A stretch of DNA of 64,000 bases from a virus: positions 1 to 64,000 of IMG/VR virus record IMGVR_UViG_3300032242_002477. The stretch is one strand, 5' to 3'. Each line of letters starts with the position of its first letter. The first letter of the stretch is position 1. Of this stretch, positions 24,930 through 59,467 are shown piece by piece. The notes below the pieces were generated by a model that was not told the origin of the DNA, did not search any database, and worked only from the letters and a program-made list of their open reading frames with translations. The position numbers and the translations under genes are program-made.

Positions 24930-25477
24930 TGACTACAATCGTAGCTGTTCAATATAAAGATAAATGCGTAATAGGTGCTGATAACCAGGTAACTGATGGT
25001 ACTGGTCGCATTTACCGTCATTCCGATATGTTAAAGATTAGTAAACGAGGTTCTTTTTTAATTGCGGGTAGTGGTGAGGTTCAGCCTTGTGATATAGCCC
25101 AACATATTTGGAAGCCGCCAGTTCCAACAGCTGCTGATAAAAAAGACGTATATCATTTTGTAATTACTAAAGCAATGCCTTCATTAAGAGAAGTTCTAAA
25201 AACTAACGGGTATAACTTTGATGAGTCAAATGATAAGTCAGAATCTACTGTTCGTTTTAATTTCCTTATTGCGGTATGTGGAGAGCTTTTTGATATTTCA
25301 GAGGATTTATCCGTATGCCGAACCGATATGGGGTTTTATGGGGTAGGAAATGGTGCTCCGTATGCTTTAGGAGCTCTTAAAGCTGGAGTTTCTATTAAAA
25401 AAGCATTAGAAATTGCTTCCTCATTTGATGCTTACACTTCAGGACCGTTCATTCAAATCGAACAGTTTAAGGATTAA
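24929..25477 (+). CDS. HslV/proteasome-beta-like Ntn hydrolase
   Basis: 182 aa with GTG start. After removal of Met the chain begins TTIVAVQY, giving an N-terminal nucleophile Thr1, with D17 in GAD and K35 in MLKIS close to the canonical Lys33. LIAGSGEV and GVGNGAPYALGAL match the S2/S3 region and the GxGxxxA helix of HslV and 20S beta subunits. Length fits HslV. No HslU-type unfoldase is visible. It could be a phage peptidase or an inactive decoy for host proteolysis. Confidence 0.75.
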   Translation: MTTIVAVQYKDKCVIGADNQVTDGTGRIYRHSDMLKISKRGSFLIAGSGEVQPCDIAQHIWKPPVPTAADKKDVYHFVITKAMPSLREVLKTNGYNFDESNDKSESTVRFNFLIAVCGELFDISEDLSVCRTDMGFYGVGNGAPYALGALKAGVSIKKALEIASSFDAYTSGPFIQIEQFKD

Positions 25478-28182: not shown

Positions 28183-28208
28183 TAGGCGTACCATATATGG
28201 TATGCCTA
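28183..28208. promoter_or_regulatory. 26-bp near-perfect palindrome over a start codon
   Basis: The sequence around TACCATATATGGTA reads the same on both strands over 26 bp except for one wobble pair, with no loop, so a protein-bound operator is more likely than a terminator. It covers the ATG at 28202 and the space after the phosphoesterase. It could control the 28-31 kb gene bank. Confidence 0.6.
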
Positions 28209-28741
28209 GTACACATCAAAATATTCAGTACCTTGGTGCTGGAGGCATGTCTGGAACTTACACCAATTACGGCGGTGGCGGCACCCCAGTAGCGCGTTCT
28301 GAACTTGACTTCCTTCGTATTGGTACAGGACGAGAGCCTTCTGCGGAGTATCCAGATGGTTATCTTGGAACAATTCGTACACGACGAGATGATAAAGGTC
28401 GTCCAAATAGTGTATCTGAGCAGGTACTTGATGGGTTAAAGGTACGTGCAGGTCAACGTTCATACCAACGCGGCGTTCATCGCGGTGAGCGTATTGACCC
28501 CTCTGATTATTATTATCCAGGTGGATTAGAAGCCGACCGCGGAATTAGGCGGCAGATGCGCGGCGTTATTAACGGTACTACTGTTATGGTTAAACGCAAT
28601 TCTGATAAAGCAACACTCGCACCCGCACCTCATTTACCAAACGATGGAAAAGCTGGCCCCAACGTTCGCAGTGATTCACCGATGGTAGTTAATAAGCGCC
28701 GTGTAGACCAGTTCTCACGCATGAGACCAGCCTGGAGTTAA
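28202..28741 (+). CDS. Hypothetical protein, possibly virion-associated
   Basis: 179 aa. Gly/Tyr-rich N terminus (LGAGGMSGTYTNYGGGG), then many Arg/Asp/Pro residues and little hydrophobic core. It opens a series of small, polar, partly disordered proteins resembling injected or head-associated phage proteins (inference). It ends one base before the next ATG. The start codon lies in a palindrome. Confidence 0.55.
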   Translation: MPSTHQNIQYLGAGGMSGTYTNYGGGGTPVARSELDFLRIGTGREPSAEYPDGYLGTIRTRRDDKGRPNSVSEQVLDGLKVRAGQRSYQRGVHRGERIDPSDYYYPGGLEADRGIRRQMRGVINGTTVMVKRNSDKATLAPAPHLPNDGKAGPNVRSDSPMVVNKRRVDQFSRMRPAWS

Positions 28742-28742
28742 T

Positions 28743-28928
28743 ATGTCAGATAACATGCCAACTTGGGACGACGAAGAGCCAGAATCTCCAAGAGATAGAG
28801 CTAAGGACGAGCGTCGTCGATACAGCCATTTGACTTGGAAATACCTAACTGAACCAGGCGGAGTAAGACCAGGAGACGAAGATTCTCACGGTCACCGTTT
28901 TGGTGAGTGGGACCCTGAGAGGTACTAA
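28743..28928 (+). CDS. Small acidic/basic hypothetical protein
   Basis: 61 aa, very polar: an acidic start (TWDDEEPESPRDRAKDE) and a C terminus ending FGEWDPERY. No motif. The gene begins one base after its neighbour and ends two bases before the next, so it is clearly part of the operon. Confidence 0.5.
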   Translation: MSDNMPTWDDEEPESPRDRAKDERRRYSHLTWKYLTEPGGVRPGDEDSHGHRFGEWDPERY

Positions 28929-28930
28929 CT

Positions 28931-29257
28931 ATGGGACTTACTAGGTCTGTTTATCATGTAGGTAAAGCTGTAGCAAAGGGCGGGGGCGCCTCAGAAATTG
29001 CTAGAGGTCTTGTTGTTGGAATGCTTCCTCCAGTAATCGGTACGGTTGTAAATGGCCTTGCTTCAGACGCAAATATTTCTAGAGTGGCTACAGGTATTAG
29101 AAATGTAGCTGACCGCGGTAGACGCTCAACATTTCATTCTGAAACTGGCCTGCCTCAGGCTCCAAGTACAGTTGATGATGCCCCAATTTCCAGACCAACT
29201 TCAGGTTTTGAATTAACAGCTACAGGTCGTAACCCTTATACGGGTGAGCGTGAGTGA
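28931..29257 (+). CDS. Small protein with hydrophobic Gly-rich segment
   Basis: 108 aa. Residues 10-46 (VGKAVAKGGGASEIARGLV, then VGMLPPVIGTVVNGLA) are hydrophobic and could be a membrane or amphipathic segment. The C-terminal half is polar. It overlaps the ADP-ribosyltransferase-like gene by GTGA. A membrane-active partner for that protein is conceivable but unproven. Confidence 0.5.
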   Translation: MGLTRSVYHVGKAVAKGGGASEIARGLVVGMLPPVIGTVVNGLASDANISRVATGIRNVADRGRRSTFHSETGLPQAPSTVDDAPISRPTSGFELTATGRNPYTGERE

Positions 29258-29658
29258 TACCCAATCAAAGCCAACTTGATAAATGGCGTCAACCTGAGCT
29301 GAGCACAGAAGTTCATCGCGGAATTAAACTTAATAGTAGAAACAACTACACCGTAAGTCCTAATTTAGGTACGCATTGGAGCACTAATCCCGAGATGGCA
29401 GCTTTATTTTCAGGTTTAGAGCGCAATGCTCACGACAGTATAGTTTTTCACGGCGAAGTTCCCATCAGCTCAGTAGAAGGTGACAAAAATATACTTAAAG
29501 AAAACGGCGTAAGAAATTTTGATACGTCAGAAAAAGAAGTACCAGTCAAACAAGGGTCACCCGTAAAAGTGACGGGTATAAGTAAATTTAGAGATGTAAA
29601 CGGTATAATTAAAGAACGTAAACGTAGTTACAATCCCCCAAGGGAGATGAAAGCATAA
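29254..29658 (+). CDS. Small ADP-ribosyltransferase-like protein (copy 1)
   Basis: 134 aa, GTG start. The motif order fits R-S-E mono-ADP-ribosyltransferases: R22 in VHRGIK, S43-T44-N45 in GTHWSTNPEMAALF, a core strand SIVFHGEVP, and E93-x-E95 in SEKEVPVKQG followed by a KVTG strand. The paralogue at 56484-56900 keeps the same order and the same C-terminal tag YNPPREM. Such enzymes transfer ADP-ribose from NAD+ to proteins; T4 Alt and Mod do this to host RNA polymerase. The assignment is by motif only. Confidence 0.55.
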   Translation: MIPNQSQLDKWRQPELSTEVHRGIKLNSRNNYTVSPNLGTHWSTNPEMAALFSGLERNAHDSIVFHGEVPISSVEGDKNILKENGVRNFDTSEKEVPVKQGSPVKVTGISKFRDVNGIIKERKRSYNPPREMKA

Positions 29659-30017
29659 TGGCAGGTAAATATGCAGACGGAGTATACAGTCGTCATCCTT
29701 GGACTGCCCCTGCTGAAGCGGCGTATCCTCCGCAGGAATATATAGGTCCGTTTCAAAGTAACCAGGAACGTATGATTAGCCAAGCCATAGCGGTAGGCAC
29801 TATGACAAGCGAAGAGATTCAAGAATATGTTCGTCCAAACCTTCCACAAATACAATTATTTCCAGAAAAGTTTGGGTATCCCACGACAGAAGTGGGAATT
29901 GAAGATATTGTAGAGCTACGTGGACGCCCTGCAGCTCAACGTGTGGAATCAGACTTCTCGCAGAAGCCTAACTCACAGCAATCAAGCAGCCGAAATACCT
30001 TAGGAGATTCAATTTAA
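29658..30017 (+). CDS. Hypothetical protein
   Basis: 119 aa. It has a Tyr/Pro-rich N terminus (HPWTAPAEAAYPPQEYIGPF), a helix (ERMISQAIAVGTMTSEEIQEYV) and a Ser/Gln-rich tail. It starts on the last base of the ADP-ribosyltransferase-like gene and its last base starts the next gene (TAATG at both ends). No function recognised. Confidence 0.5.
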   Translation: MAGKYADGVYSRHPWTAPAEAAYPPQEYIGPFQSNQERMISQAIAVGTMTSEEIQEYVRPNLPQIQLFPEKFGYPTTEVGIEDIVELRGRPAAQRVESDFSQKPNSQQSSSRNTLGDSI

Positions 30018-30250
30018 TGGCATACGACCCAGGTTTATTGACCGACTCCACAGGCGAAGGCATGGCTGGAGCGGAAGATGTGTCCTTAGAAACGCAACAA
30101 AAATTGAAAGAAACGTACTACAATGGGTCTAAGCCTTGCATCAGTTGCGGGCTAACCTTGAACCCAGTTCAGGCATTAACTTCGGAGCACTGCCCAAGCT
30201 GTGCCCGTAAAAAGAAAGTTAATTTAGTAAAGAATAGGATGGCACAATGA
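30017..30250 (+). CDS. Small zinc-ribbon protein
   Basis: 77 aa. CISC near 41-44 and CPSC near 61-64 with a basic C terminus (ARKKKVNLVKNR) form a zinc ribbon. It overlaps the next gene by ATGA. Likely nucleic-acid or protein binding. Confidence 0.55.
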   Translation: MAYDPGLLTDSTGEGMAGAEDVSLETQQKLKETYYNGSKPCISCGLTLNPVQALTSEHCPSCARKKKVNLVKNRMAQ

Positions 30251-30456
30251 CAGTTCGCCACGCACGTTCAGAGAACACCTCACTTGAAGAGGGCGCAACA
30301 GACGGTAAGTATCGTAAGCGTCGTCCTAACACAGAGGTAGCGACAGGACAAGGCGACCAGTTGGTCGTTAAGAACCGCGCAGACCTTCACCCATACTTCA
30401 ACTATGGCTTCATCAATTCTGAAGAGCCAAGCATGGTAAATCCAGCAGGTAACTAA
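30247..30456 (+). CDS. Small polar hypothetical protein
   Basis: 69 aa, Arg/Glu/Asn-rich with no hydrophobic core, ending FINSEEPSMVNPAGN. It overlaps upstream by ATGA and downstream by one base (TAATG). No motif; the pattern suggests a disordered accessory or virion-packaged protein. Confidence 0.45.
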   Translation: MTVRHARSENTSLEEGATDGKYRKRRPNTEVATGQGDQLVVKNRADLHPYFNYGFINSEEPSMVNPAGN

Positions 30457-30644
30457 TGAAACTACCGCACCGTAGAGAAAAAGACGAAACCCGCGTCTTA
30501 CAAAATATGGGAAAAGCCCTAGGGTGGGAGCGTTCTGACAATAACCCACGCATTACCTACCAACAAACAAGTCCCAATACTAAGAAGGCTGTTATTACTG
30601 CAAAGCCTCACGTTAACATGGTAAGAGAAGAAGATGAAGAGTAA
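30456..30644 (+). CDS. Small basic hypothetical protein
   Basis: 62 aa, basic at first (MKLPHRREKDETRV) with an acidic end (REEDEE). No recognised domain. It overlaps the following gene by 11 bases, in keeping with the coupled arrangement here. Confidence 0.45.
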   Translation: MKLPHRREKDETRVLQNMGKALGWERSDNNPRITYQQTSPNTKKAVITAKPHVNMVREEDEE

Positions 30645-30828
30645 TCCATCACAATTTCCTGATAATGACAAGCCAGACGATGATGAAGAAAAACTAGGTA
30701 AACCTTTAGTTTCCCCTGCTTTAGCTCGTGCTTTTGAAGCCACGAGAGGCTGGGGTGAAGAGGAATATATCCCCTGGGTGCAACGTTGGCATGAAAAGTT
30801 TGGTAAGGGTTCTGGAGCAAAAGGCTAA
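30634..30828 (+). CDS. Small hypothetical protein
   Basis: 64 aa with an acidic linker (DNDKPDDDEEK) and a Trp/Glu-rich amphipathic stretch (WGEEEYIPWVQRWHEKF). No family recognised. The ATG lies inside the preceding gene. Confidence 0.45.
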   Translation: MKSNPSQFPDNDKPDDDEEKLGKPLVSPALARAFEATRGWGEEEYIPWVQRWHEKFGKGSGAKG

Positions 30829-30829
30829 T

Positions 30830-30889
30830 ATGGTTAACCGTTGGCGCAAGCAACGGAAAATAATAAATACTATGACTGGAGGTAAGTAA
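30830..30889 (+). CDS. Possible 19-aa basic peptide
   Basis: ATG 30830 opens MVNRWRKQRKI and stops at 30889, one base before the GTG of the next gene. It fills the only gap between two coupled genes, which is the main argument for it. There is no SD of note. It may simply be leader sequence. Confidence 0.25.
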   Translation: MVNRWRKQRKIINTMTGGK

Positions 30890-31330
30890 GTGAGTGATTT
30901 TGAGTGGGATGAAGAACCTCAAGATAGCCGTGCGTCAAAAGCGCGTAAACTAGATGCAGAACGCGCTGCCCGTGACGCTAGGTCTGCTGCAATTGATAAG
31001 GAAATAAATGAGTCTTACGGCACTCCAGGATATTTTCGCGACCCAAATGACCACGAAAACCGCATGATAAACTCCTCATTAGAGGGATTTCGTAGAGAAA
31101 AACCTGGGCCTAAAAAAGAAGCTCATCGCACAACTTTTTGGAACATTGTTCAGGGAACTGGTCGGGGCCGAACACAGGCTACCCGAGGTGCCTTTCCGCA
31201 CGGTTCAGCAGCTCCTTGTGCAAATCCAGGCTGCAACAATGAAGTTGGGTATGACGAAGGCGATGTAACCTGCGGGCCAAACGGCTGTGATATGCCTAAC
31301 AGTGTAGACGTTCAGCGCGAAAAAGAATAA
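30890..31330 (+). CDS. Hypothetical protein with Cys-rich C terminus
   Basis: 146 aa, GTG start 8 bases after GGAGG. N-terminal half is a charged helix (SRASKARKLDAERAARDARS); the C-terminal CANPGCNNEVGYDE and TCGPNGC hold four cysteines, probably a zinc knuckle. The motif HENRMINSSLEGF is loosely echoed in the 53603 protein (DDRMINNGLISG). It ends the first small-gene bank. Confidence 0.5.
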   Translation: MSDFEWDEEPQDSRASKARKLDAERAARDARSAAIDKEINESYGTPGYFRDPNDHENRMINSSLEGFRREKPGPKKEAHRTTFWNIVQGTGRGRTQATRGAFPHGSAAPCANPGCNNEVGYDEGDVTCGPNGCDMPNSVDVQREKE

Positions 31331-31384
31331 ACATTTAAATATTATTTGTAGTATTATTTAGCTTGTCTAATATTAGGAGTATAA

Positions 31385-31924
31385 ATGGAAGACATTGAGA
31401 ATGAGCGTTTCAACCTTTTAATTTGCAAAACTTGCAAAACAATTGAAGAGCTTCCGTATACTAAAACTGGCGAGTATCTTGGCCAGGGTAAGTACAAGCA
31501 GGATGATAATCCATTTGTACAACAAGCTGCCGATAGGCATCCAGACCATGTAGGCGCCCCGTTAATGGATGTGCAATTTGCTGTTTGGATGACTCAAAAG
31601 TATAAAGATGGTGTCGTAGAGCAGCTTCGTGAAACTTTTTTTGGAAAAGGCGCGTCTCAAGGTTTGGACGTTTTTGGTACAGGATTTTATGGACTAAAAG
31701 ATACTTATAGTCAAGACGCGATGTCATGTTGGAAACTACATAACAGTCCTAAAGGTCAATGCGACGATTACAAATCTGAGCGTAAGCTTTTGGACCCAGG
31801 CACATCTAAAGAACGTGCTGCTGAAGGCTTAGGCAAATCTAATATTAAAGTTTATTTATGCGATTTTTGTCCAGTTAAAATGTATAACCAAAAGAAAGCA
31901 TATGAAGAACGAGGGCTATACTAA
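31385..31924 (+). CDS. Conserved-looking zinc-binding hypothetical protein
   Basis: 179 aa. CKTC near 14-17 and CDFC near 159-162 could share a zinc ion across the fold. The arrangement NLLICKTCKTIEELPY ... GTGFYGLKDTYSQDAMSCW ... LCDFCPVK recalls a hypothetical protein family common in actinophages (recollection). TAGGAG precedes the ATG. It begins a new run after a 54-base gap. Function unknown. Confidence 0.6.
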   Translation: MEDIENERFNLLICKTCKTIEELPYTKTGEYLGQGKYKQDDNPFVQQAADRHPDHVGAPLMDVQFAVWMTQKYKDGVVEQLRETFFGKGASQGLDVFGTGFYGLKDTYSQDAMSCWKLHNSPKGQCDDYKSERKLLDPGTSKERAAEGLGKSNIKVYLCDFCPVKMYNQKKAYEERGLY

Positions 31925-32166
31925 TGGAAGAATTACCAACTAAAGAAGAAAGCCCCGATGTAGAGACGGCGTTTATTGTTTATAAAACATTTGACGGGTC
32001 GTTTCACGCTACACCAGCCTTAGATATATCGTTTATTGTTGACCATTTAGCTACAAAACAAGATATAAAGACCGCAATGTCTGAATTACTTGAATCCATG
32101 CACCAAACTGCTATAGCAGAAGTTTTATTACGTAAATTAACTGAAAAAAATAACGAGGATAGCTAG
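31924..32166 (+). CDS. Small acidic hypothetical protein
   Basis: 80 aa; TAATG overlap with the gene before. Acidic N terminus, a beta hairpin-like FIVYKTFDGSFHA, and a C-terminal helix. No domain recognised. The 74 bases after it hold no convincing gene. Confidence 0.5.
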   Translation: MEELPTKEESPDVETAFIVYKTFDGSFHATPALDISFIVDHLATKQDIKTAMSELLESMHQTAIAEVLLRKLTEKNNEDS

Positions 32167-32240
32167 AAAAAAACGGGTGAGATACGTCAAACTTTACGTG
32201 ATAGAAAAGACATGGCGTAACTACAAACTTAGGCGGTACT

Positions 32241-32444
32241 ATGTTCATCGAAATGAATTGCCAGTGCATGGCTAACGTGCATATTGAAACAGAAGAAAAC
32301 GAATCGTTAGCCGTACTATGGGCACAAAAGTTTGTAGAAGCGCATGAATCATGCGGATATATGGCTCCGACTAAAGTTGATACTCCTGAAGTAACTAAAC
32401 GATATCACATTTCAACAGAGATAAAGCGTAGAGAAAAGGAATAA
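32241..32444 (+). CDS. Small hypothetical protein
   Basis: 67 aa with three cysteines (CQC near 8-10, C38), mixed alpha/beta, ending in a Lys/Arg/Glu helix. The upstream context GGCGG is a weak SD. No known family. Confidence 0.45.
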   Translation: MFIEMNCQCMANVHIETEENESLAVLWAQKFVEAHESCGYMAPTKVDTPEVTKRYHISTEIKRREKE

Positions 32445-32461
32445 TCCAGTAGTATTAGGGA

Positions 32462-33394
32462 ATGGATTACCAAGAGTTATTGAGCGAGCAAGCTGAGCCA
32501 GTGGATATTGAGCCTGGTTCTACTTCTTACTTTAGCAAGCCCGAAACTCACTTAGACCCCCGTCTATTTCGCAGCGGCAAACTTATTCCCAACGTTCGTG
32601 ACGCCATCCTTAGTATTTTATTTGGGTATTTAAATAATACTTACCAAAGCGCTGAGTCTTGGACACACGCTTGGATAGCAGGTTCTGGAGCATCCTACCA
32701 ATGGGCAGCGGCCAGAGAGCCAGCAGATTTGGATTGTTTAGTTGGCATTGATTATATTATATTTCGCCAATCAAATGATAAATACGCTGGATTTAGCAAC
32801 CAAGAAATAGCTAATATGTTAAATTCCGAATTTCGGAATTACATTTGGCCAGATACTGAGCATTTTTTAAACACTTTTGAGTTAACTTTTTATGTAAATG
32901 TGCAGACAGATATTAAAAATATTAAGCCGTATGCCGCCTATTCATTGACGGACGATACTTGGGTTGTAGAGCCTCAGTTAATAGAGACAAAGCACAAACC
33001 CGAATGGGACGTAAAAATTATAAGAGATAAATCTATGGCATTAGAAATATTAAGCCGTTACACTCAGGCTTTAAATAAAATTCATGCAGCTACAAATCCT
33101 TCAGCCAAATTAAATGCAGAGAACGAGCTACAGCTAGCTGTACAGCAGGGAGCTGCTTTATTTGATTCTATACATTTAGGTCGTAGAGTAGCCTTTAGCC
33201 AAAGTGGTCAAGGATATTTAGATTATGCTAATTATCGTTGGCAATCCCACAAAGAAATGGGAATCGTTCCAGCTTTAAAAAAGCTAAAAGATATGTCTGA
33301 ATCTGCTAAAAAAACATATGAAGAAAACACTTACGGAGCAGAACTGCCAACAACCGATACGTTATTGCGGAGAGCAATCACTACTAACAAATAA
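32462..33394 (+). CDS. Nucleotidyltransferase-fold protein
   Basis: 310 aa. AWIAGSGASYQWAAAREPADLDCLVG matches the GS...DxD core of the polymerase-beta-type nucleotidyltransferase fold (G72, S73, and acidic pair in DLD near 90-92), with a third acidic residue possibly in ELTFYVN. Such proteins add nucleotides to RNA, small molecules or proteins (including MNT antitoxins). It is the first of three consecutive genes often seen together in actinophages (recollection). Confidence 0.68.
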   Translation: MDYQELLSEQAEPVDIEPGSTSYFSKPETHLDPRLFRSGKLIPNVRDAILSILFGYLNNTYQSAESWTHAWIAGSGASYQWAAAREPADLDCLVGIDYIIFRQSNDKYAGFSNQEIANMLNSEFRNYIWPDTEHFLNTFELTFYVNVQTDIKNIKPYAAYSLTDDTWVVEPQLIETKHKPEWDVKIIRDKSMALEILSRYTQALNKIHAATNPSAKLNAENELQLAVQQGAALFDSIHLGRRVAFSQSGQGYLDYANYRWQSHKEMGIVPALKKLKDMSESAKKTYEENTYGAELPTTDTLLRRAITTNK

Positions 33395-33408
33395 TTTGGG
33401 GTAAATAC

Positions 33409-33870
33409 GTGGCTTTATTAATGTATCTAGACGGAGTACTCAGAAACGGGAAAAAAGTTCCGATTCGCGAGTCAATGGCTTTTTATCGTAGTACAAAAGA
33501 AAATATTAAAATAATTCTAGCTGCTGACAGTAAGTCTGAAGGTGACCAATGGCTGCGTACTCATAATTTAAAGCAGTTTGACGATATTGTGGGCGATGAG
33601 GTACCTATGGTAGCCCCCACCTTGCAGATTAGTCAGGCAGAATACATTCGTTCTCAGGGACAAGGCAAGTTGTCGATGGTTATCACCGCAGACCCTGAGC
33701 TGGCTAAAGAGTTATTAGAGCGCGGGTTTACCGTAATGTTATTCCTAAACCCGTTGTACGCAGACCCAGCCAGCCGACCAGATAGTTCTGAAGGCCGCCG
33801 TAAATGGGAAGACATTACATCTGCCATAGACCGACAACAGGAATTATTTATGGAAGACCCACGAACTTGA
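33409..33870 (+). CDS. HAD-like protein lacking the usual nucleophile
   Basis: 153 aa from GTG 33409 (ATG 33421 possible). The start LLMYLDGVLRNG resembles HAD motif I DxDGVL, but the first Asp is replaced by Tyr; ITADPELAKELLERGFTVMLFLNP fits the later Rossmann part. If HAD, it is probably non-catalytic or uses another residue. It overlaps the next gene by TTGA. Confidence 0.5.
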   Translation: MALLMYLDGVLRNGKKVPIRESMAFYRSTKENIKIILAADSKSEGDQWLRTHNLKQFDDIVGDEVPMVAPTLQISQAEYIRSQGQGKLSMVITADPELAKELLERGFTVMLFLNPLYADPASRPDSSEGRRKWEDITSAIDRQQELFMEDPRT

Positions 33871-52104: not shown

Positions 52105-52776
52105 ATGGCAAAACCTCGTAAACCCCGCGCTGCTCGTCCTGCAAGAAGCGGACGGGGCAATCCTACTATAGGTAGGACCGCACAAGACAAACTTGTTTCT
52201 CCAGAGCGCATGCTTGGCCGTATTCGTCGGCCAGGTGAGTATGACGAGAGCCGCGAAGAGAACGAATATGGCAATACAGTTGATTTTGCCGATGCCAAAA
52301 TGCGTCGTGAAGCTGGAGAAGGCGTAAACCGATACCCAGGAAAGTGCGTTCACTGCTCTAAGAGTATTGCAGTTGGAATGGGAGAACCTATTCATCGCGA
52401 CGATGTTCCTGCCGAAAAATTGCGCGGAAAAGGCGAATGGCATGTTCAATGCGCTGGCGCATCATGCCTTAATAAAAAGGGAAATGTAAAAGGCCCAGCA
52501 ACTCAAGATGTACCTGTTGCTCAAGGAACTGTCGGTAAAAAAGTTCCAATTGGTAAGGCGGGCGGAGCACATCACGCTGTTCACGTGCACGATAGCCAGG
52601 GAGTTTGGCAAGGTTCACTTAGCTGGCATCCTCGTTCAGGAGTCATTCAAAGTATTGATATTAACCCAGACCACCCAAATCCAGATGTCGTACATAATCG
52701 TTTAATGCAGGACGCGCTCTCTATGTCAAATCAACGCGGATTATCAACTCCAAGAAATAGAGGCTTAAATCCATGA
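52105..52776 (+). CDS. Zinc-finger protein with GNAT-like C-terminal segment
   Basis: 223 aa. Basic N terminus (PRKPRAARPARSGRG), CVHC near 80-83 with HVQC near 112, then a C-terminal part LSWHPRSGVIQSIDINPDHPNPDVVHNRL which resembles the central strands of GNAT acetyltransferases, though the acetyl-CoA loop is not convincing. AGGAGAG precedes the ATG. It starts the second bank of small genes. Confidence 0.5.
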   Translation: MAKPRKPRAARPARSGRGNPTIGRTAQDKLVSPERMLGRIRRPGEYDESREENEYGNTVDFADAKMRREAGEGVNRYPGKCVHCSKSIAVGMGEPIHRDDVPAEKLRGKGEWHVQCAGASCLNKKGNVKGPATQDVPVAQGTVGKKVPIGKAGGAHHAVHVHDSQGVWQGSLSWHPRSGVIQSIDINPDHPNPDVVHNRLMQDALSMSNQRGLSTPRNRGLNP

Positions 52777-53033
52777 GTGATTCCCCACACGAACCAGTAC
52801 AGGCTGGATTAGTAGGAAAGCCTGATACTAGTAATGTGCGTCCTGTAAATAGGCGCGAAATGGATGTGCGCCGTAAATTGCGTAACTCCACAGACCCAAT
52901 TGATGTATCTGTGTATGAGGACCCGACCTCTCGCAAGAGGCATGTAGACCAAGAAATGGCTAAACCAGAACCTCGTCAAAGCGTATTTGATAAAGCTCTG
53001 GACTACTTAGGATTGTCGGAGAACCCTAACTAA
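52773..53033 (+). CDS. Small polar hypothetical protein
   Basis: 86 aa, Arg/Asp/Pro-rich, ending in a helix (FDKALDYLGLSENPN). ATGA upstream and TAATG downstream. No known domain. Confidence 0.5.
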   Translation: MSDSPHEPVQAGLVGKPDTSNVRPVNRREMDVRRKLRNSTDPIDVSVYEDPTSRKRHVDQEMAKPEPRQSVFDKALDYLGLSENPN

Positions 53034-53407
53034 TGGCAAAATCAAAACGTAAATCAGGTAACTTGGGCTCACTTCAAAACCAGTATCACAAAGATTCTGT
53101 TGATTATATGCTTTCTAAAACTGGTGGGCGAGTACCTTCTGGCAAAGAAGCTACAGCGTTAGACCAAGAGTGGGCAGCATCTAGAACCCGCGAATTTGCT
53201 GTAGGTCAAGGTATTGACCACCAGATTAACTACGAAGCATTAATGCAAGAAGTTCCTGGCAAAGCTCCTTCTACAAGTTCTAAAACAAAAAAAGAAATTG
53301 CAAAAACTGGTGAAGAACAGGGTCGAGAAGCGCAAGCTCAGGAACCTTATCTTGCAGATAATATTTACAAAAACGATTTAGGATACGTTAATCGTGCACC
53401 CAACTGA
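53033..53407 (+). CDS. Polar hypothetical protein
   Basis: 124 aa, Lys/Gln/Glu/Ser-rich and mostly helical or disordered (KATALDQEWAASRTREFAVG-like helix in the middle). It overlaps the next gene by 14 bases. No family recognised. Confidence 0.5.
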   Translation: MAKSKRKSGNLGSLQNQYHKDSVDYMLSKTGGRVPSGKEATALDQEWAASRTREFAVGQGIDHQINYEALMQEVPGKAPSTSSKTKKEIAKTGEEQGREAQAQEPYLADNIYKNDLGYVNRAPN

Positions 53408-53606
53408 CGGACAGTTTGATGAGTACGCACTTCCAGGTGATGAGCCTCTAAGACACCAATGGGATACAAACGTGCAGTTTGACTGGTACCGCCATCTTCC
53501 CAAAGAAAAGCAACAAGAGCTAAGTCCCGAAGGAGACCACGCAAAGGCGTGGGAAAAACACACTCGTATGCTTGATTTAGAGCACCGAGCTGAAAGCGAA
53601 GAATGA
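53394..53606 (+). CDS. Small hypothetical protein with ALPG motif
   Basis: 70 aa, GTG start inside the previous gene. DEYALPGDEPLRHQW near 9-23 contains an ALPG phrase like that at both ends of the zincin at 55689. The C terminus is an acidic/basic helix. ATGA overlap downstream. Confidence 0.5.
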   Translation: MHPTDGQFDEYALPGDEPLRHQWDTNVQFDWYRHLPKEKQQELSPEGDHAKAWEKHTRMLDLEHRAESEE

Positions 53607-53836
53607 CAGACCCAGCCACAGGTCGTGACCGATTAACACGAGCTTTAGGAGAGTTTACACCTCGTCGTGGCGTTAGGACTGACGGTTCCCGTAATAAGGC
53701 CTTTACAGGTAACAGCGATGACCGCATGATTAACAATGGACTTATCTCTGGGCCCCGTCAAAGCTTTCAACGCTACAATGTAGGCAAGAATGCAACTGAC
53801 GCAATAAATAGGGGCAAACCTACACTGGAGAGATAA
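53603..53836 (+). CDS. Small basic hypothetical protein
   Basis: 77 aa, Arg/Asn/Gly-rich, with DDRMINNGLISG echoing the 30890 protein. No structure evident. Coupled upstream by ATGA and directly followed by the GNAT gene. Confidence 0.5.
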   Translation: MTDPATGRDRLTRALGEFTPRRGVRTDGSRNKAFTGNSDDRMINNGLISGPRQSFQRYNVGKNATDAINRGKPTLER

Positions 53837-54286
53837 ATGCTTGAGATACTTCCAATGCCGAATGATGACTTGGTTATAGAGACTGTCTCCAGATGGAACG
53901 CGGATTTTTGGAAAGAACAAGGTGCAGAGCTCAGCACTCAGATAAAACATTATAAAGAGCTATTAAGTTCTGATGATAATGTTTTTGCCCTTGTCGCCTA
54001 TTATGACGGGATTTTGGCGGGTTCAATTTGCTTAGAAAAGCAAAATGGTATTTATTTAGGCGCAGGGTTATTTGTACCCAAAGAAATGAGAAAACATAGA
54101 GTTGGTCTGTCTTTAATAGAGGCAATGAAATCCCACGCTGCTAAACTTGGCGTAGACAAGATTTATGTTTGGACGCCTAATTTGACTCGTTTATATACGT
54201 ATTATGGTTGGGTAGTTATTCAAGAAAAAACAGAACATCTTGGTATGCTAGTAGACATACTAGTTTTAAATATTAAAGGAGAATAA
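53837..54286 (+). CDS. GNAT acetyltransferase
   Basis: 149 aa. AGSICLEKQNGIYLGAGLFVPKEMRKHRVG contains the beta4-loop-alpha3 acetyl-CoA site (K-x-R/V-G type), followed by SLIEAMKSHAAKLGVDKIYVW and a C-terminal TRLYTYYGW, as in GNAT enzymes. The substrate is unknown; phage GNATs can modify host proteins, toxins or DNA-linked groups. Confidence 0.78.
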   Translation: MLEILPMPNDDLVIETVSRWNADFWKEQGAELSTQIKHYKELLSSDDNVFALVAYYDGILAGSICLEKQNGIYLGAGLFVPKEMRKHRVGLSLIEAMKSHAAKLGVDKIYVWTPNLTRLYTYYGWVVIQEKTEHLGMLVDILVLNIKGE

Positions 54287-54287
54287 A

Positions 54288-54575
54288 ATGCCATTTTTAG
54301 CAGCGGCAGCGCCAGAACTACTCGCAGTAGGTGCAGGAGCTGGTGAGGCAGCGGCAGGTGGCGCAGCGGTAGCAGGGGAAGCGGGGGCGGCTACCGAAGG
54401 TGCAGCTGGAGCCGCGGAAGAAACGGCAGGTAGCCGTTCAGATGAGTTTAATAACGCAAAAGATGAACAGAAAAAAAACAATCAACAAAAACGCGAATCT
54501 GATAATAGTGGTGGAATAACTGTTGCTGGCATGCCTGTTGTTCCAAATATGGCAGAGTATTATAGTAAAAACTAA
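54288..54575 (+). CDS. Ala/Gly-rich small protein
   Basis: 95 aa. Residues 1-45 are almost only Ala, Gly, Val and Glu (APELLAVGAGAGEAAAGG), then a charged linker. It could form an amphipathic or collagen-like surface element. Starts one base after the GNAT gene. Function unknown. Confidence 0.5.
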   Translation: MPFLAAAAPELLAVGAGAGEAAAGGAAVAGEAGAATEGAAGAAEETAGSRSDEFNNAKDEQKKNNQQKRESDNSGGITVAGMPVVPNMAEYYSKN

Positions 54576-54751
54576 TGAAGCCAAATAGTATTCAATTTAA
54601 AGTTGATGGTGAAGAGCATGTGGTTGACAAGCACGGCAATAAGTACAAAGTTCACCACCCAGGCAAGAAAAATAAAACTTATACATTAGACGCTAATTCT
54701 TTGTCGGAAGCTAAAAATGCTGTAAAGGAGTGGCACAAAAAAAATGGCTGA
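54575..54751 (+). CDS. Small basic hypothetical protein
   Basis: 58 aa starting MKPNSIQFKVDGEEHVV, beta-rich then a Lys-rich helix at the end. TAATG overlap upstream, 8-base overlap with the next gene. No known family. Confidence 0.55.
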   Translation: MKPNSIQFKVDGEEHVVDKHGNKYKVHHPGKKNKTYTLDANSLSEAKNAVKEWHKKNG

Positions 54752-55052
54752 ATCACCAGCATGGCAACGTAAAGAAGGTAAGAACCCAAAGGGTGGCTTA
54801 AACGCTAAAGGCCGCGCATCGGCTAAGGCAGAAGGCCATAACTTGAAAGCTCCTGTTAAGTCAGGAGATAATCCGCGTCGTGCATCGTTCCTAGCACGTA
54901 TGGGACACGCATCTGGCCCAGAACATAAACCAAACGGCGAACCAACTCGTTTGCTACTATCATTGCAGGCATGGGGAGCTTCCTCTAAAGCTGATGCCGT
55001 AGCAAAAGCTGCTGCTATTTCTAAAAGAAATAAAGGTAAGGATAAGAAATGA
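54744..55052 (+). CDS. DUF6321-like protein
   Basis: 102 aa. WQRKEGKNPKGGLNAKGRAS and the later PRRASFLARMGHASGP are the diagnostic phrases of a small phage family that I recall as DUF6321. The function is unknown; many members are in virion-like clusters. ATGA overlap downstream. Confidence 0.65.
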   Translation: MAESPAWQRKEGKNPKGGLNAKGRASAKAEGHNLKAPVKSGDNPRRASFLARMGHASGPEHKPNGEPTRLLLSLQAWGASSKADAVAKAAAISKRNKGKDKK

Positions 55053-55240
55053 CAAAAGAAAAACCAGTATGGGATAAAAAAGACCCTGACAAGGGAAAGC
55101 ATACAAAGTTAAGTAAGTCACAGAAATCATCTGCTCGAGCAAAAGCTAAAGCAGCTGGGCGCCCTTACCCAAATCTTATTGATAATATGGCTGTGGCGAA
55201 GAAAAACAAACCTCCTAAAAATACAGGTAAAACAACATGA
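55049..55240 (+). CDS. Small Lys-rich protein
   Basis: 63 aa, about one third Lys/Arg (KLSKSQKSSARAKAKAAGRP). Nucleic-acid binding is likely by charge. ATGA overlaps on both sides. No family. Confidence 0.5.
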   Translation: MTKEKPVWDKKDPDKGKHTKLSKSQKSSARAKAKAAGRPYPNLIDNMAVAKKNKPPKNTGKTT

Positions 55241-55635
55241 GCGCCGAAGATAACCTTATCCCTAGACAATTTAATCCTCTAGAAAAAACTGCTGGATTTG
55301 AAAATCCACATGGTAAATGGTCATTTAAAGTTGGGGATATTGTTAATATGGCTGCTAGTAAAGGTGAGTTAAATACCTTTAATCCTCAGATATTTGCCCC
55401 TCAACTAGAAGGACGTCTAGGAGAGAGCACAGAAGAAAATAGAACACGAACCAATGCGGTAGATATGAGCCACCCTATTGTTGTACTTAAACATCCAGAT
55501 GATACACATAGCCTCCTTGATGGAACCCACAGAGTCCAAAATGCTTTGGAAAAGGGTATGGAAAGCATTAATGCACGAGTAGTGACTCATAAAGACATGC
55601 AACCATGGCAAAAAAGAAGAAAAAATAATGGCTAA
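55237..55635 (+). CDS. ParB/sulfiredoxin-fold protein
   Basis: 132 aa. PIVVLKHPDDTHSLLDGTHRVQNALEKGMESINARVV is the core of the ParB-like nuclease/sulfiredoxin fold, with the DGTHR loop in place of the ParB GxRR box. No HTH follows, so it is the catalytic-type domain alone. Such domains can be nucleases, CTPases or ATPases. It lies next to a zincin and an ADP-ribosyltransferase-like gene. Confidence 0.7.
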   Translation: MSAEDNLIPRQFNPLEKTAGFENPHGKWSFKVGDIVNMAASKGELNTFNPQIFAPQLEGRLGESTEENRTRTNAVDMSHPIVVLKHPDDTHSLLDGTHRVQNALEKGMESINARVVTHKDMQPWQKRRKNNG

Positions 55636-55696
55636 AATTAATCGACCATCACGTGCTTCTGGACAACGTAGTAGAAGGAGAGCACTTCGTGGGTAA
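55628..55696 (+). CDS. Possible 22-aa basic peptide
   Basis: ATG 55628 opens MAKINRPSRASGQRSRRRALRG and stops at 55696, overlapping genes on both sides by 8 bases. Very Arg-rich. The arrangement matches the coupled genes around it, but size makes it uncertain. Confidence 0.35.
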   Translation: MAKINRPSRASGQRSRRRALRG

Positions 55697-56444
55697 AAAC
55701 AAGTTTAGTCAGCCTGCTTTGCCAGGTATGCCTCGTCCTAGAGACCTCATGACTCCTGAAGCACGTTACCCTCGCGGGTATACCCCTGAACGTCAACGCG
55801 CTATTTCAGATGCGTTTAAAAATACTCATGTAGGTGGTACGATTAATCCAGATAATCCCGACCCTTCATTTCCAAAAGATATTAGAAAGTTAAGAGCTTT
55901 AGCTATTGATTCGGTAGCAAATAGTAAAATACAACCAGAACAATTACAAGGCATACACTCAATAAATTTTAATGAAGGTGATGAAAAAAACACGAATATG
56001 GATGAAAACGAGATGGGCAATTATAGGGGCGGAATTATAAATATTCGAGGTAGCATGACAGGAGTCGAAAGAAATGAAGGCGCATCTAATTTACGCCATG
56101 AAATTGGGCATCATGCTACTCTAGGCACGGTGCCACCGAATGGCACAGATACAAATAGGGGACTTCGTGAAGGTGTTGCAGATGAGTTTGCTCAAACAAC
56201 TGAAAATAAAATTCATAGAGGGGCCCCCTCAAGATTACCAAATCAACGTACTTATGTTCGTCGAGCATTGCGGGGAACTTCTTTCGGTGGTGAACATAAA
56301 GACTGGAGTGAAGGTTATTTTCAAGGCCGTGCTCCTGGAAGAAGAGAAGAATTTATAAAATCTTTAAAACCAGGTGACTATAGCGATAAATTTGCTGATG
56401 CTAATAATCTTGGTGTGCAATTAGCATTGCCAGGTATGGAATAA
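55689..56444 (+). CDS. Zincin metallopeptidase-like protein
   Basis: 251 aa from GTG 55689, 8 bases after AAGGAG. NLRHEIGHHATLG gives HExxH (H137, E138, H141), and GLREGVADEFAQ supplies a likely third ligand Glu (about E161). ALPGM occurs at residues 10-14 and again at the extreme C terminus. A small protease that could process phage or host proteins; similar zincins are found in phage internal proteins. Confidence 0.7.
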   Translation: MGKNKFSQPALPGMPRPRDLMTPEARYPRGYTPERQRAISDAFKNTHVGGTINPDNPDPSFPKDIRKLRALAIDSVANSKIQPEQLQGIHSINFNEGDEKNTNMDENEMGNYRGGIINIRGSMTGVERNEGASNLRHEIGHHATLGTVPPNGTDTNRGLREGVADEFAQTTENKIHRGAPSRLPNQRTYVRRALRGTSFGGEHKDWSEGYFQGRAPGRREEFIKSLKPGDYSDKFADANNLGVQLALPGME

Positions 56445-56483
56445 GATTGCAAAGAAAACCGCCGTCTACAGAAAAGATAAATA

Positions 56484-56900
56484 ATGAAGCATGACGAGGG
56501 CCGCCAGTGGAAAGAGGTTTTTAGAGGCCTTGGTCCAGGAAATTCAACAGTTAATAACCCAGTGGGTATTCATTGGTCATCGGATTACCGTATTGCAGCC
56601 ACCCGTTTTGCCAATCGAACAGTTCCAGCTAAGCGTGGGAGCGTTGATACCTCTATTGTTTTGCACGGACACGTACCACCTGCTAGTGTAGTTAATCCAA
56701 AAAGTAAGGAAGGAAAAGACTTAGTATCTAGGTTTGGTATTTGGCCAGGCTCAGGTGAAAAAGAAGAAACTGTGCGACCTGGTTCTACAGTTTTAGTAAC
56801 AGGTCAAACTCGTCTAAAGTCAAGAAAAGATAAAGGGGGGCACATTGAGTGGAAGTCTCGCCTCCGAACATACAACCCACCGCGAGAAATGCAAGCGTGA
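56484..56900 (+). CDS. Small ADP-ribosyltransferase-like protein (copy 2)
   Basis: 138 aa. R14 in VFRGLG, S32-S33-D34 in GIHWSSDYRIAATRF, strand SIVLHGHVP and E92-x-E94 in GEKEETVRPG followed by TVLVTG. Order and spacing agree with the paralogue at 29254-29658, and both end in YNPPREM plus K/Q-A. Likely an R-S-E mono-ADP-ribosyltransferase acting on a host protein (inference). Confidence 0.55.
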   Translation: MKHDEGRQWKEVFRGLGPGNSTVNNPVGIHWSSDYRIAATRFANRTVPAKRGSVDTSIVLHGHVPPASVVNPKSKEGKDLVSRFGIWPGSGEKEETVRPGSTVLVTGQTRLKSRKDKGGHIEWKSRLRTYNPPREMQA

Positions 56901-56915
56901 TGAAGGGGATAAATA

Positions 56916-57257
56916 ATGGCTGAACCAACTAGACAATTTAAATTAAACAGGTCAATGACCGCTTCCCCAGAAACTATGGCACATACAGGTGAGGCAGCAC
57001 CTGACTGGGATACTCATTATGGGACTGCTTTTCGTTTTGCTGAGACACCTAAAGGAGCTGCCACAATAAATGGTAAGACTGTAGACGCAGCGCCAGGAAC
57101 AGTTTCCTTAGTTACTCCTTATAACGGTGACGCTTGGAAGTCTTGGCCCGAGGCCTCTAATGAAGCAAAAATTAACTTTAAGTCTAATTGGGGTAGCATG
57201 TGGGACACCGCAGGTGGTTACAAACAACGTCAAATACTAGGAGCTATTAATGGCTGA
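56916..57257 (+). CDS. Hypothetical protein
   Basis: 113 aa, Thr/Ala/Trp-containing and polar, with HYGTAFRFAETPKGAATI and FKSNWGSMWDTAGGY. GGGGAT precedes the ATG. It overlaps the next gene by 8 bases. No motif recognised. Confidence 0.5.
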   Translation: MAEPTRQFKLNRSMTASPETMAHTGEAAPDWDTHYGTAFRFAETPKGAATINGKTVDAAPGTVSLVTPYNGDAWKSWPEASNEAKINFKSNWGSMWDTAGGYKQRQILGAING

Positions 57258-57546
57258 GACAAAAAAGTTTGGGCCTTACAAAGGCTCTGATGCTAACGGT
57301 GGCCGTCCTATTTATGTCTACAAGACTAAAGGCAAGGATGGTAAGTGGCATACCACTTCTAAAAACAAAGCTCGTGCGGATTACGAGTCTGAGCACGGAA
57401 AAATTAAAAACAAAAACAAAACAGTTGACCACAAAGATAATAACCACAATAATGATTCTAAAAAAAATCTTCAAATTCTTGACAAAGGAAAAAACACGGC
57501 TAAAGAAAATAAACGCCGTGCAGGTAAAAAACCAAATGCAAAGTAA
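57250..57546 (+). CDS. Small HNH-like protein
   Basis: 98 aa. KTVDHKDNNHNNDSKKNLQIL and the following N-K-E-N helix match the HNH core of homing-type nucleases (DH...NN...NL), without zinc cysteines. The N-terminal part is beta-rich and basic. It may be a small endonuclease. It lies in the second small-gene bank. Confidence 0.65.
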   Translation: MAETKKFGPYKGSDANGGRPIYVYKTKGKDGKWHTTSKNKARADYESEHGKIKNKNKTVDHKDNNHNNDSKKNLQILDKGKNTAKENKRRAGKKPNAK

Positions 57547-57571
57547 ACCACTAAGTTAAGGAGCGTTTCAA

Positions 57572-57772
57572 ATTACTGTATCTGCTGTTACTAGAGACCT
57601 TACCGCTCAAGACCGATGTGATTCCTGTGGCGCTGCTGCAAGAGTTGTAGCAACGTTTTTAAACGGGGAGCTGCTGTTCTGTGGGCACCATGCCCGCAAA
57701 TCAGTTGAAGCATTAAAAATTAAAGCTTTAGGGGTTCATGACCCTGAGGGTGAGTTGGAAAACCTAGTATAG
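57572..57772 (+). CDS. DUF7455-like protein, ATT start
   Basis: 66 aa. LTAQDRCDSCGAAARVVATF followed by LLFCGHHARK is the DUF7455 pattern common in actinophages. No ATG, GTG or TTG is in frame between the upstream stop at 57557 and the domain. ATT 57572 is exactly 8 bases after AAGGAG (57558-57563), giving MTVSAVTRDLT. A zinc-binding protein of unknown function. Confidence 0.75.
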   Translation: MTVSAVTRDLTAQDRCDSCGAAARVVATFLNGELLFCGHHARKSVEALKIKALGVHDPEGELENLV

Positions 57773-57774
57773 TT

Positions 57775-57867
57775 ATGGAAAATCCTTGGCAATGCGAGAT
57801 TTGTAAAAAAATTTATGTGGTTACTTCTTTGGCTAGACATTGCGAAGAAAAACACTTAGAAGAGTAG
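57775..57867 (+). CDS. Mini C2H2 zinc-finger protein
   Basis: 30 aa. CEICKKIYVVTSLARHCEEKH is a classical C-x2-C-x11-H-x4-H zinc finger and makes up almost the whole protein. It starts 2 bases after the DUF7455-like gene. It could bind DNA or a protein partner. Confidence 0.6.
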   Translation: MENPWQCEICKKIYVVTSLARHCEEKHLEE

Positions 57868-57878
57868 TAGTATTCTCC

Positions 57879-57899
57879 TAGACCGCCAAATGGGGTCTA
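57879..57899 (+). other. Small hairpin upstream of hsp20
   Basis: TAGACC (57879-57884) pairs with GGTCTA (57894-57899) around a 9-base loop in the 63-base leader before the Hsp20 gene. It could be a weak terminator or a leader element; there is no direct sign of a thermosensor. Confidence 0.4.
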
Positions 57900-57930
57900 T
57901 TAACCTATTTTCGTCTAAGGAGAAAATATA

Positions 57931-58440
57931 ATGGCATCAGGCTATCCACATTCAGAATATAACAAAGCACCGCACTGGGAACCAAAAGACTATTGGGCTA
58001 CGCCAAATACAAAAACCCAAGTAGCAACAGTAAATTTTCCCTCGTTGTTTAACGACCAATTCTTTTTAGGGTTTCATGACCAAATTGCTCGTTGGAATGC
58101 TTTAGCAACTATGAAGAAACCTGCTTCATTTCCACCTTACAACATCATTAAGATAGATGAGGATAACTACATAGTTGAACTAGCTGTTGCAGGCTACGGA
58201 AAAGAAGATATCGACATTACTATTGAAACAGACCTTTTAACTGTAAAAAGCAATAAGACATCTAAAACTAAAGAAGATTTTGTCCATCAAGGTATTGCTG
58301 AACGAAACTGGGAACAGCAGTTCGTACTTGGTGAGTGGATGTCTATTAAAGAGGCTGCCCTCAAAGATGGGCTCTTGACTATTAAGGTTGAGCGCGAGAT
58401 TCCTGAGGAATTAAAGCCAAAAACAATCAAAATAAAATAA
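57931..58440 (+). CDS. Small heat-shock protein, Hsp20/IbpA-like
   Basis: 169 aa. FPPYNIIKIDEDNYIVELAVAGYGKEDI begins the alpha-crystallin domain, HQGIAERNWEQQFVLGEW continues it, and IPEELKPKTIKI gives the C-terminal I-x-I tail. It holds unfolding proteins in solution. Hsp20 genes are frequent in cyanophages but less so in actinophages. AAGGAG precedes the ATG, and a terminator follows. Confidence 0.88.
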   Translation: MASGYPHSEYNKAPHWEPKDYWATPNTKTQVATVNFPSLFNDQFFLGFHDQIARWNALATMKKPASFPPYNIIKIDEDNYIVELAVAGYGKEDIDITIETDLLTVKSNKTSKTKEDFVHQGIAERNWEQQFVLGEWMSIKEAALKDGLLTIKVEREIPEELKPKTIKIK

Positions 58441-58454
58441 GTAAATAAAGCCTT

Positions 58455-58489
58455 AAGCCCTACAGATTAGCTTTGTAGGGCTTTTGTGC
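58455..58489 (+). terminator. Terminator after hsp20
   Basis: AAGCCCTACA (58455-58464) pairs with TGTAGGGCTT (58474-58483), then TTGTGCTTTT. Confidence 0.85.
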
Positions 58490-58512
58490 TTTTATACAGA
58501 CAAAGGTATGTT
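58484..58512 (+). promoter_or_regulatory. Possible promoter for 58532
   Basis: TTGTGC (58484-58489) and TATGTT (58507-58512) with a 17-base spacer follow the terminator. Start point would be near 58519, just upstream of the next gene. Confidence 0.4.
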
Positions 58513-58531
58513 TACCATAAATAATTAAGAC

Positions 58532-59188
58532 ATGTCATTTTATAATCCTAATCAAGCAGGTATCCCAGGAAATCACGGCTCTGGGTTTGGTAATTTATTT
58601 AGCGGTTTTAGATATGGAACGTACGGCGACCACCATCGTGGTCGTAGCGGGTTGACATTCGGTAGCGGCAGACAGATGAAACAGTACTTTGAAAACCAAG
58701 CTGAACTTGAACGAGTAAAAGCTCAACACAGCATGGACATGAAAACTCATGAAGCTAATGTAGGCGATTGGTCAGAGCAGCAGACTCACGGAAGAAACAA
58801 GGACGACCGCGAGCATTCTAATACTGAAATGCAAAAAATTATGGATGCAAATCCTCATCTCGCGCATTATGATGCAAATAACAACGTATACAAGTTTGGT
58901 AAGCGCGAAACACCAGCTGCAGGGCCAGCTGCAGGGCCAGCGGCAGGGCCAGCTGCCGACGGTCTAGTAGGTTCTTCTGAAGAAGGTCACGGTGGAGACG
59001 GAAACGCTAGCTATGAAGACGCATCTAATGCTGTGTTAGGTGGTCACATTGCACCATTGCAGGCTATGGATTTAAGCCCAGAGTACGGTCAGCAATGGGC
59101 ACTGGCCAAGGTAGATGCTGACGGTCGTACAGCAAAGATGGGACCACAGTTTAAGGTTGCAGATAACTTCGTTCACCCAGATGATTAA
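58532..59188 (+). CDS. Gly/His-rich hypothetical, possibly virion protein
   Basis: 218 aa. Gly-rich N terminus (GNHGSGFGNLFSGFRYGTYG), a charged helix in the middle (NQAELERVKAQHSMDMKTHE), an AAGP repeat array, and an acidic C-terminal part. It is predicted to be largely extended. Just upstream of the Ig-like surface protein region; a structural role is a guess. Confidence 0.5.
   Translation: MSFYNPNQAGIPGNHGSGFGNLFSGFRYGTYGDHHRGRSGLTFGSGRQMKQYFENQAELERVKAQHSMDMKTHEANVGDWSEQQTHGRNKDDREHSNTEMQKIMDANPHLAHYDANNNVYKFGKRETPAAGPAAGPAAGPAADGLVGSSEEGHGGDGNASYEDASNAVLGGHIAPLQAMDLSPEYGQQWALAKVDADGRTAKMGPQFKVADNFVHPDD
58913..58956 (+). repeat. 12-bp repeat encoding AAGP
   Basis: Three complete copies and one partial copy of CCAGCTGCAGGG, with one variant copy (GCGGC), in frame. 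Confidence 0.9.
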
Positions 59189-59315
59189 TGAGCAGGAAAC
59201 TCAATCGCTTAGTAAGGTAGACCCAAGAGAGTTTTGGGATGCGCTTACTAGAGCAAAAGGCGCCATTGATGGGCAAGAAACTGAAGCCCTGCAATGGAAT
59301 CGGTGGTCCGTGTGA
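59181..59315 (+). CDS. Small hypothetical protein
   Basis: 44 aa from ATG 59181, overlapping the previous stop by 8 bases. MINEQETQSLSKVDPREFWDAL then a helix ending LQWNRWSV. GTGA overlap with the next gene. No family. Confidence 0.5.
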   Translation: MINEQETQSLSKVDPREFWDALTRAKGAIDGQETEALQWNRWSV

Positions 59316-59467
59316 GAAGCAAAGAATTTGATAACTCTGTAGAAAAACCCTTAACTGTAATTGACAGTAGGTTTGGGCTTCGCAGATTACCTAAAAGCAA
59401 CGAAAAACCAACAGCATTTAGTTATGACACGCCTGGGCGTGGACCAAATGGTGAACATCAAAGCTAA
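59312..59467 (+). CDS. Small basic hypothetical protein
   Basis: 51 aa, GTG start overlapping the upstream TGA. VIDSRFGLRRLPKSNEKPTA, then a polar Gly/Pro-rich end. No family recognised. A 90-base gap with a GGGATATATCC palindrome follows. Confidence 0.45.
   Translation: MRSKEFDNSVEKPLTVIDSRFGLRRLPKSNEKPTAFSYDTPGRGPNGEHQS

Follow-up and report, generated by a model that had tools for sequence, protein, structure and literature searches.

What are the two small, related proteins that one uncultured bacteriophage encodes in separate banks of small genes, and what might it use them for? The question is raised by the IMG/VR record IMGVR_UViG_3300032242_002477 (74,580 bp), of which we analyzed positions 1-64,000 (64,000 nucleotides, hereafter the window). 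An original prediction, made without database searches, had read both proteins as paralogous ADP-ribosyltransferase (ART)-like effectors with the R-S-E layout of arginine-type enzymes. We find this reading to be right as far as computation can test it, while "effector" and "host target" are matters of inference. The ARTs represent a known kind of protein in a new family; what would surprise a specialist is a leader peptide shared by an effector repertoire. The two genes and their key residues are located as follows.

29254..29658, + strand: ART-like copy 1, GTG start, 134 amino acids, start overlapping the stop of the preceding gene
29317..29319, + strand: Arg22 codon of copy 1, catalytic-type arginine on predicted β-strand 1
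29380..29382, + strand: Ser43 codon of copy 1, HWS motif
29530..29538, + strand: E93-K94-E95 codons of copy 1, ExE motif
29629..29649, + strand: YNPPREM of copy 1, in the last predicted β-strand
56484..56900, + strand: ART-like copy 2, ATG start, 138 amino acids
56871..56891, + strand: YNPPREM of copy 2, in the last predicted β-strand

Both open reading frames exist as described and are homologous, with 40% identity over 131 amino acids in a pairwise BLASTP alignment (58.9 bits, E = 6e-17, far above chance). The motifs R, HW(S/T), ExE and YNPPREM are present in this order in both copies and in register in a MAFFT alignment: R22, H41-W42-S43, E93-K94-E95 and Y126-NPPREM in copy 1, and R14, H30-W31-S32, E92-K93-E94 and Y130-NPPREM in copy 2. 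No third copy was found in the whole 74,580-bp record. The pair is an old split rather than a recent duplication, because the copies fall in different subfamilies and each has closer relatives in other phages than its partner in this one.

A missing ART fold had been set beforehand as the refuting test; the fold was found in independent AlphaFold models of both proteins, built with family alignments (predicted local distance difference test scores of 87.0 for 56484 and 86.2 for 29254). Structural comparisons were run with VIA-align 2 on Foldseek candidates. For the 56484 model, the first 36 rows were all ART folds and the first non-ART row stood at Z 3.3; the best match was pertussis toxin S1 (Z 7.6, 112 residues, 3.9 Å), followed by the Rhs toxin TreX (Z 7.0) and then by cholera/LT toxins and PARPs. 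The top rows for the 29254 model held pertussis S1, cholera A1, Tpt1/KptA and PARPs (Z 6.4 downwards), and IcmQ and CNFy, which we take to have ART-like domains, were also among its matches. The nearest viral models were those of uncultured-phage proteins; next came proteins of greater length from the Mycobacterium phages Myrna, Stubby and Bigswole and from the Gordonia phage Pupper. In the predicted models, the arginine lies on strand 1, the serine or threonine on strand 2 and the glutamate at the start of the fourth strand. A Z of 6 to 8 is by itself insufficient to settle a fold; we regard it as settled because nearly the whole match list is one superfamily and the conserved residues sit on the expected R-S-E strands. 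The ART reading of both proteins is thus well supported by the models. One detail has to be revised: YNPPREM, proposed as a C-terminal tag, instead lies inside a confidently predicted β-strand (29254, residues 118-133; 56484, residues 121-137). These high-confidence strands rule out an appended tag, and in the models the motif is a family feature of the fold that belongs to the long C-terminal strand.

How widespread are such proteins? All records used come from uncultured phages and are of unknown completeness; genes other than the two ART reading frames were called by a simple script. IMG/VR scans with either protein alone gave no match, and only the alignment of the two yielded relatives, 21 of them with the same motifs, to which a later scan added more. 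The family now comprises at least 37 proteins, all in uncultured phages. In its alignment, R22 and G39 are invariant (37/37), position 43 is serine or threonine in every member, H41 and W42 are nearly invariant, and E95 and E93 are kept in 35/37 and 34/37, respectively. At 20-50% identity, such conservation is the trace that an alignment is expected to carry of a working R-S-E active site. Two relatives, L023:184-522 and L036:8120-8461, have NKP in place of EKE and retain R and HW/YW-S; they are possible inactive or altered versions. The phage record G002 carries three adjacent ART genes that occupy three separate places in the family tree.

Neither window protein has a noteworthy match in Pfam, PHROG or INPHARED. 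No ART model (VIP2/Alt, ModA and others) was among the Pfam matches of any of the 23 members tested, the best PHROG match of any member was to phrog_3147, listed with unknown function (E = 8.4e-6), and PDB sequence searches came back empty. The C-terminal pattern led to no relative among 84,980 genomes of bacteria and archaea, and there is therefore no sign of host or prophage copies. The family is undescribed in databases, and standard profiles miss it. With the R-S-E toxins of the pertussis/cholera type (PT S1, LT/CT A1, PltA, TreX, TreTu) it shares the predicted fold and the R-S-E residues, its ExE standing in place of the catalytic glutamate, whereas identity over the structural alignments is only ~6-16%, and the family is smaller than most of these toxins, has no delivery domains and is phage-encoded.

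The source phage is predicted to be of a freshwater type with a host among the Actinobacteria. Its two WhiB genes identify it as an actinophage, a baseplate wedge gene indicates a contractile tail, and by terminase the closest isolates are Streptomyces phages, among them BRock (54% identity).

What sets the family apart is the N-terminus. Most ART relatives begin with a leader of the form MSAxDNLSxx(Q/L)F or MSNL(S/N)xxQF; many start MSAEDNLSxxQF or MSAQDNLSxxLF, as do quite different proteins encoded next to them. The strict leader is found in 27/37 family members. A scan of IMG/VR with the leader alone returned 64 DNA stretches against the two or three expected by our estimate, and the pattern occurred in 15 of 18 records, always within one cluster, compared with 0/18 for the reversed pattern. 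After removal of the leader, 85 distinct leader proteins fell into 14 BLAST clusters. These include Arr-like ARTs (NCBIfam rifampin_ARR, E = 1.6e-6; PF12120, E = 0.004), PARP-like ARTs (PF00644, E = 0.002), ParB-like proteins (PHROG match, E = 1e-4), GNATs (PF00583, E = 4.6e-7) and families without a recognizable name. Three papain-like candidates (L035:3900-4409, L048:2983-3483 and L016:3127-3630) bear C..A...H..H motifs and match Tox-PLDMTX weakly (E = 0.08). The Arr-like neighbors match models of the rifampin ADP-ribosyltransferase, which belongs to a different (H-type) ART clade, separate from the two window proteins. When the profiles of the ART and ParB-like families were compared, only the 12 leader residues aligned.

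Loci retrieved with the leader itself are biased, and enrichment was therefore measured in loci picked solely through the ART C-terminus, with the ART genes themselves removed. The motif [NH][LI]x(1-4)[QL][FW] within the first 20 residues occurred at the N-terminus of 46/381 neighbor genes, against 5/1906 control windows taken from other parts of these proteins (P = 1.6e-31); the enrichment is roughly fifty-fold, and the P value overstates independence because some genes are homologous between loci. The reversed motif was found at 1/381 N-termini, and many of the motif-bearing neighbor genes carry the short form MSNL(S/N)xxQF. Between leader clusters, third codon positions agree at 0.42, against 0.45 from column composition, and the 30 bases of upstream DNA are not alike (identity 0.29). 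The conserved unit is therefore the peptide and not the DNA, which rules out inheritance of the leader as a DNA cassette. It is also not merely the first strand of one ART family, since it precedes ParB-like, GNAT and papain-like proteins as well. Mimicry of the scaffold C-terminus was considered too and is not supported: the scaffold of the window phage has SRQFT, but its relatives have QQTYT, QQSYT and QQTVS. Among the nearest isolated phages, neither Mycobacterium phage Phabba, inspected by eye, nor Streptomyces phage LuckySocke, in the part close to its terminase, showed the leader, and no description of it was found in open-licence papers.

Where do the leader genes lie relative to the two ART copies and to the head genes? 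The placement of copy 1 and copy 2 in two banks of small genes, as originally proposed, was borne out (coordinates refer to the window unless the record is named).

28202..33870, + strand: bank 1, small genes, mostly retained gene for gene in record G004 (L098)
35496-37529: B12-dependent ribonucleotide reductase (RNR)
52105..59467, + strand: bank 2, small genes, with the endolysin, terminase, portal, scaffold-like and capsid genes downstream on that strand
53837..54286, + strand: GNAT acetyltransferase in bank 2 (PF13673, E = 3.5e-9), no leader
55237..55635, + strand: ParB/sulfiredoxin-like small protein, DGTHRV motif by eye, leader MSAEDNLIPRQF
55689..56444, + strand: zincin-like protein adjoining copy 2, HEIGHH motif by eye, no Pfam or PHROG match
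56916..57257, + strand: small protein with the leader-like start MAEPTRQF, homologues elsewhere starting MTSPENISDQQF and MSNLSSEQF
62257-62802: endolysin
64784-66370 of the record: terminase
67297-69015 of the record: portal
69952-71022 of the record: capsid

The protein at 55237-55635 has the only strict leader in the window. A two-residue form (Q-F/W within the first 16 amino acids) occurs in 5/19 bank 2 proteins against 2/87 (P = 0.002), which is a hint only, as the banks were chosen after the sequence had been read. Copy 1 has a syntenic orthologue at the same place in bank 1 of the relative (L098:8882-9307, 39% identity). In relatives with 79% terminase identity, the leader cluster lies upstream of the endolysin, terminase, portal and capsid genes.

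The best overall explanation, to which we give somewhat better than even chances, is that the proteins form an R-S-E ART family of contractile-tailed actinophages and serve as effectors that are packaged through the leader and injected. The ART would bind NAD+ through R22 and S/T43, and E95, forming with E93 the ExE pair seen in arginine-specific enzymes, would transfer ADP-ribose to a host protein. The family probably does catalyze ADP-ribosyl transfer, and we lean toward a host protein as its target. The ARTs are part of a repertoire of unrelated small proteins (PT-S1-like, Arr-like and PARP-like ARTs, GNATs, ParB-like and papain-like proteins), many of which share the leader and are encoded on one strand upstream of the lysis and head genes. 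The leader would direct them into the prohead, for injection with the DNA at the next infection. What the analysis shows directly is the family, its conserved residues, its predicted fold, the leader on unrelated proteins and the order of the genes; catalysis, target, packaging and injection are inferred.

This proposal draws on bacteriophage T4, in which Alt and the internal proteins are packaged into the head through a capsid-targeting sequence (CTS), and in which the internal proteins are, according to a review, highly diverse defense proteins with only the CTS conserved (PMC3012670, PMC7411985). Packaged ARTs are thought to be common or enriched in contractile-tailed phages, the myoviruses (PMC9503650). 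As with T4 Alt and IPI-III, a phage with a contractile tail groups an ART with unrelated small proteins that share a short N-terminal peptide. The comparison with T4 Alt thus extends beyond what was originally claimed, since the shared leader of the relatives recalls the CTS; the leader sequence itself is unlike that known for T4. The family ART also differs from Alt in having only 134 amino acids and no Pfam or PHROG match to it. We hold packaging to be the most likely role because the leader stands on unrelated proteins, is clustered upstream of lysis and head genes and resembles the T4 CTS. We give packaging and injection through the leader about even chances. The argument is made from relatives, the window's own two proteins having a degenerate leader or none.

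A second precedent is given by the polyvalent proteins (PMC5512222), which likewise combine ART, ParB-like and metallopeptidase domains, and some mycobacteriophage relatives fuse a ParB-like domain with a GNAT or an ART. In mycobacteriophage Blubba, the GNAT finds its match within a ParB-like protein encoded a few genes ahead of the portal gene; ParB-like proteins in phages Stubby and Bigswole have BFVD models that match that of the ART. Here, by contrast, the domains are separate single-domain proteins (the ARTs of 134-138 amino acids) that share a leader and are not fused. We therefore put forward, with a confidence just short of even, that the leader (M-S-A-x-D-)N-L-(S/N/G)-x-x-(Q/L)-F could be a general address that loads exchangeable small effector enzymes into the virion for injection. 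On the same footing, it could represent the strategy of the polyvalent proteins distributed over individually tagged ones, with a previously unknown packaging signal.

Several observations weigh against packaged and injected ARTs. The structural Z scores are middling (6.4-7.6), and a plain Foldseek search against PDB gave no E below 0.1. Both glutamates are lost in two family members (L023 and L036), and no isolated relative was found in INPHARED with the four members searched. The strict leader is missing from 10/37 members, 6 of which keep a partial one; copy 1 has none (MIPNQSQLDKW) and copy 2 a partial or degenerate one (MKHDEGRQW). No virion proteomics was found for the phage lineage. A scaffold-like gene lies between those for portal and capsid, and a non-exhaustive search near portal and capsid recognized no prohead protease, which is a difference from T4. 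T4-type leaders are cut by the prohead protease; as none was recognized here, the leader, if it is a packaging signal, is perhaps not cut.

A rather unlikely alternative is that the proteins are genuine R-S-E ARTs made during infection and never packaged, like T4 ModA/ModB. The leader would then signal something else inside the cell, such as a partner protein, localization or turnover, for instance by the HslV-like peptidase of the phage, and a gene of the HslV family is indeed conserved in these phages. The evidence from fold and residues fits this alternative equally well. Copy 1, in bank 1, has replication and nucleotide genes (RNR) nearby rather than head genes next to it, and may therefore act inside the cell in the manner of ModA. 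However, the leader cluster of the relatives immediately precedes the lysis and head genes on their strand, and the leader is found on a wide range of unrelated domains, of types known from packaged polyvalent proteins. Should the ART fold have been kept and catalysis lost, the proteins would serve as binding or structural parts. The two members with NKP for EKE point that way, but the retention of R and S/T in 37/37 and of E95 in 35/37 at 20-50% identity, both window copies included, makes this improbable for the family.

Two further readings appear very remote. In the first, the proteins would poison protists grazing on infected cells, a "Trojan horse" role that has been suggested for VIP2-like ARTs of freshwater phages; VIP2-like ARTs are reported from freshwater actinophages (PMC6802176), and several of the nearest folds here are toxins acting on eukaryotes. 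The host group is the same, but those ARTs are assigned to the VIP2 family, whereas ours have no Pfam ART match. Moreover, no binding or translocation domain is seen in the single domain of 134-138 amino acids, its ParB-like, GNAT and Arr-like company points to the bacterial cell, and likeness of fold is uninformative about the target. The toxin of a toxin-antitoxin or superinfection-exclusion pair has precedent among phage ARTs (PMC9503650); against it, the loci that we read contain no constant neighbor gene, the genes around copy 1, around copy 2 and around the relatives being different.

The ARTs extend the R-S-E clade by a new family of very small size, carried by phages of the Actinobacteria, which dominate in fresh water. 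Whatever the fold of the proteins, the leader provides a sequence handle for candidate injected effectors in uncultured phages, and the question of which phage proteins are injected becomes a search followed by a simple fusion test. If the leader is indeed a packaging signal, selected proteins could also be directed into a phage head by means of this short tag.

Proteins of other kinds also came to notice. L097:8737-10314 and L096:635-2080 encode proteins of 481-525 amino acids and unknown function that start with MPLG(K/R)QF, a short leader form. A small leader family (L095:565-831, L101:8353-8619 and L097:6691-6951) has the pattern MPDNLNNAQFGD..GHSIGWHILKWH...HEHFTPK with conserved histidines; a related member had no significant Pfam match. 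In the window, an HSP20 small heat-shock gene (57931-58440) lies near bank 2, and its counterpart in L098 lies near bank 1. The HslV-family peptidase gene is located at 24929-25477 (PHROG 1040, E = 3e-26); by its sequence, it is predicted to encode a proteasome-like peptidase carried by actinophages, and in relatives, where it is ~60% identical, it is found near the leader cluster.
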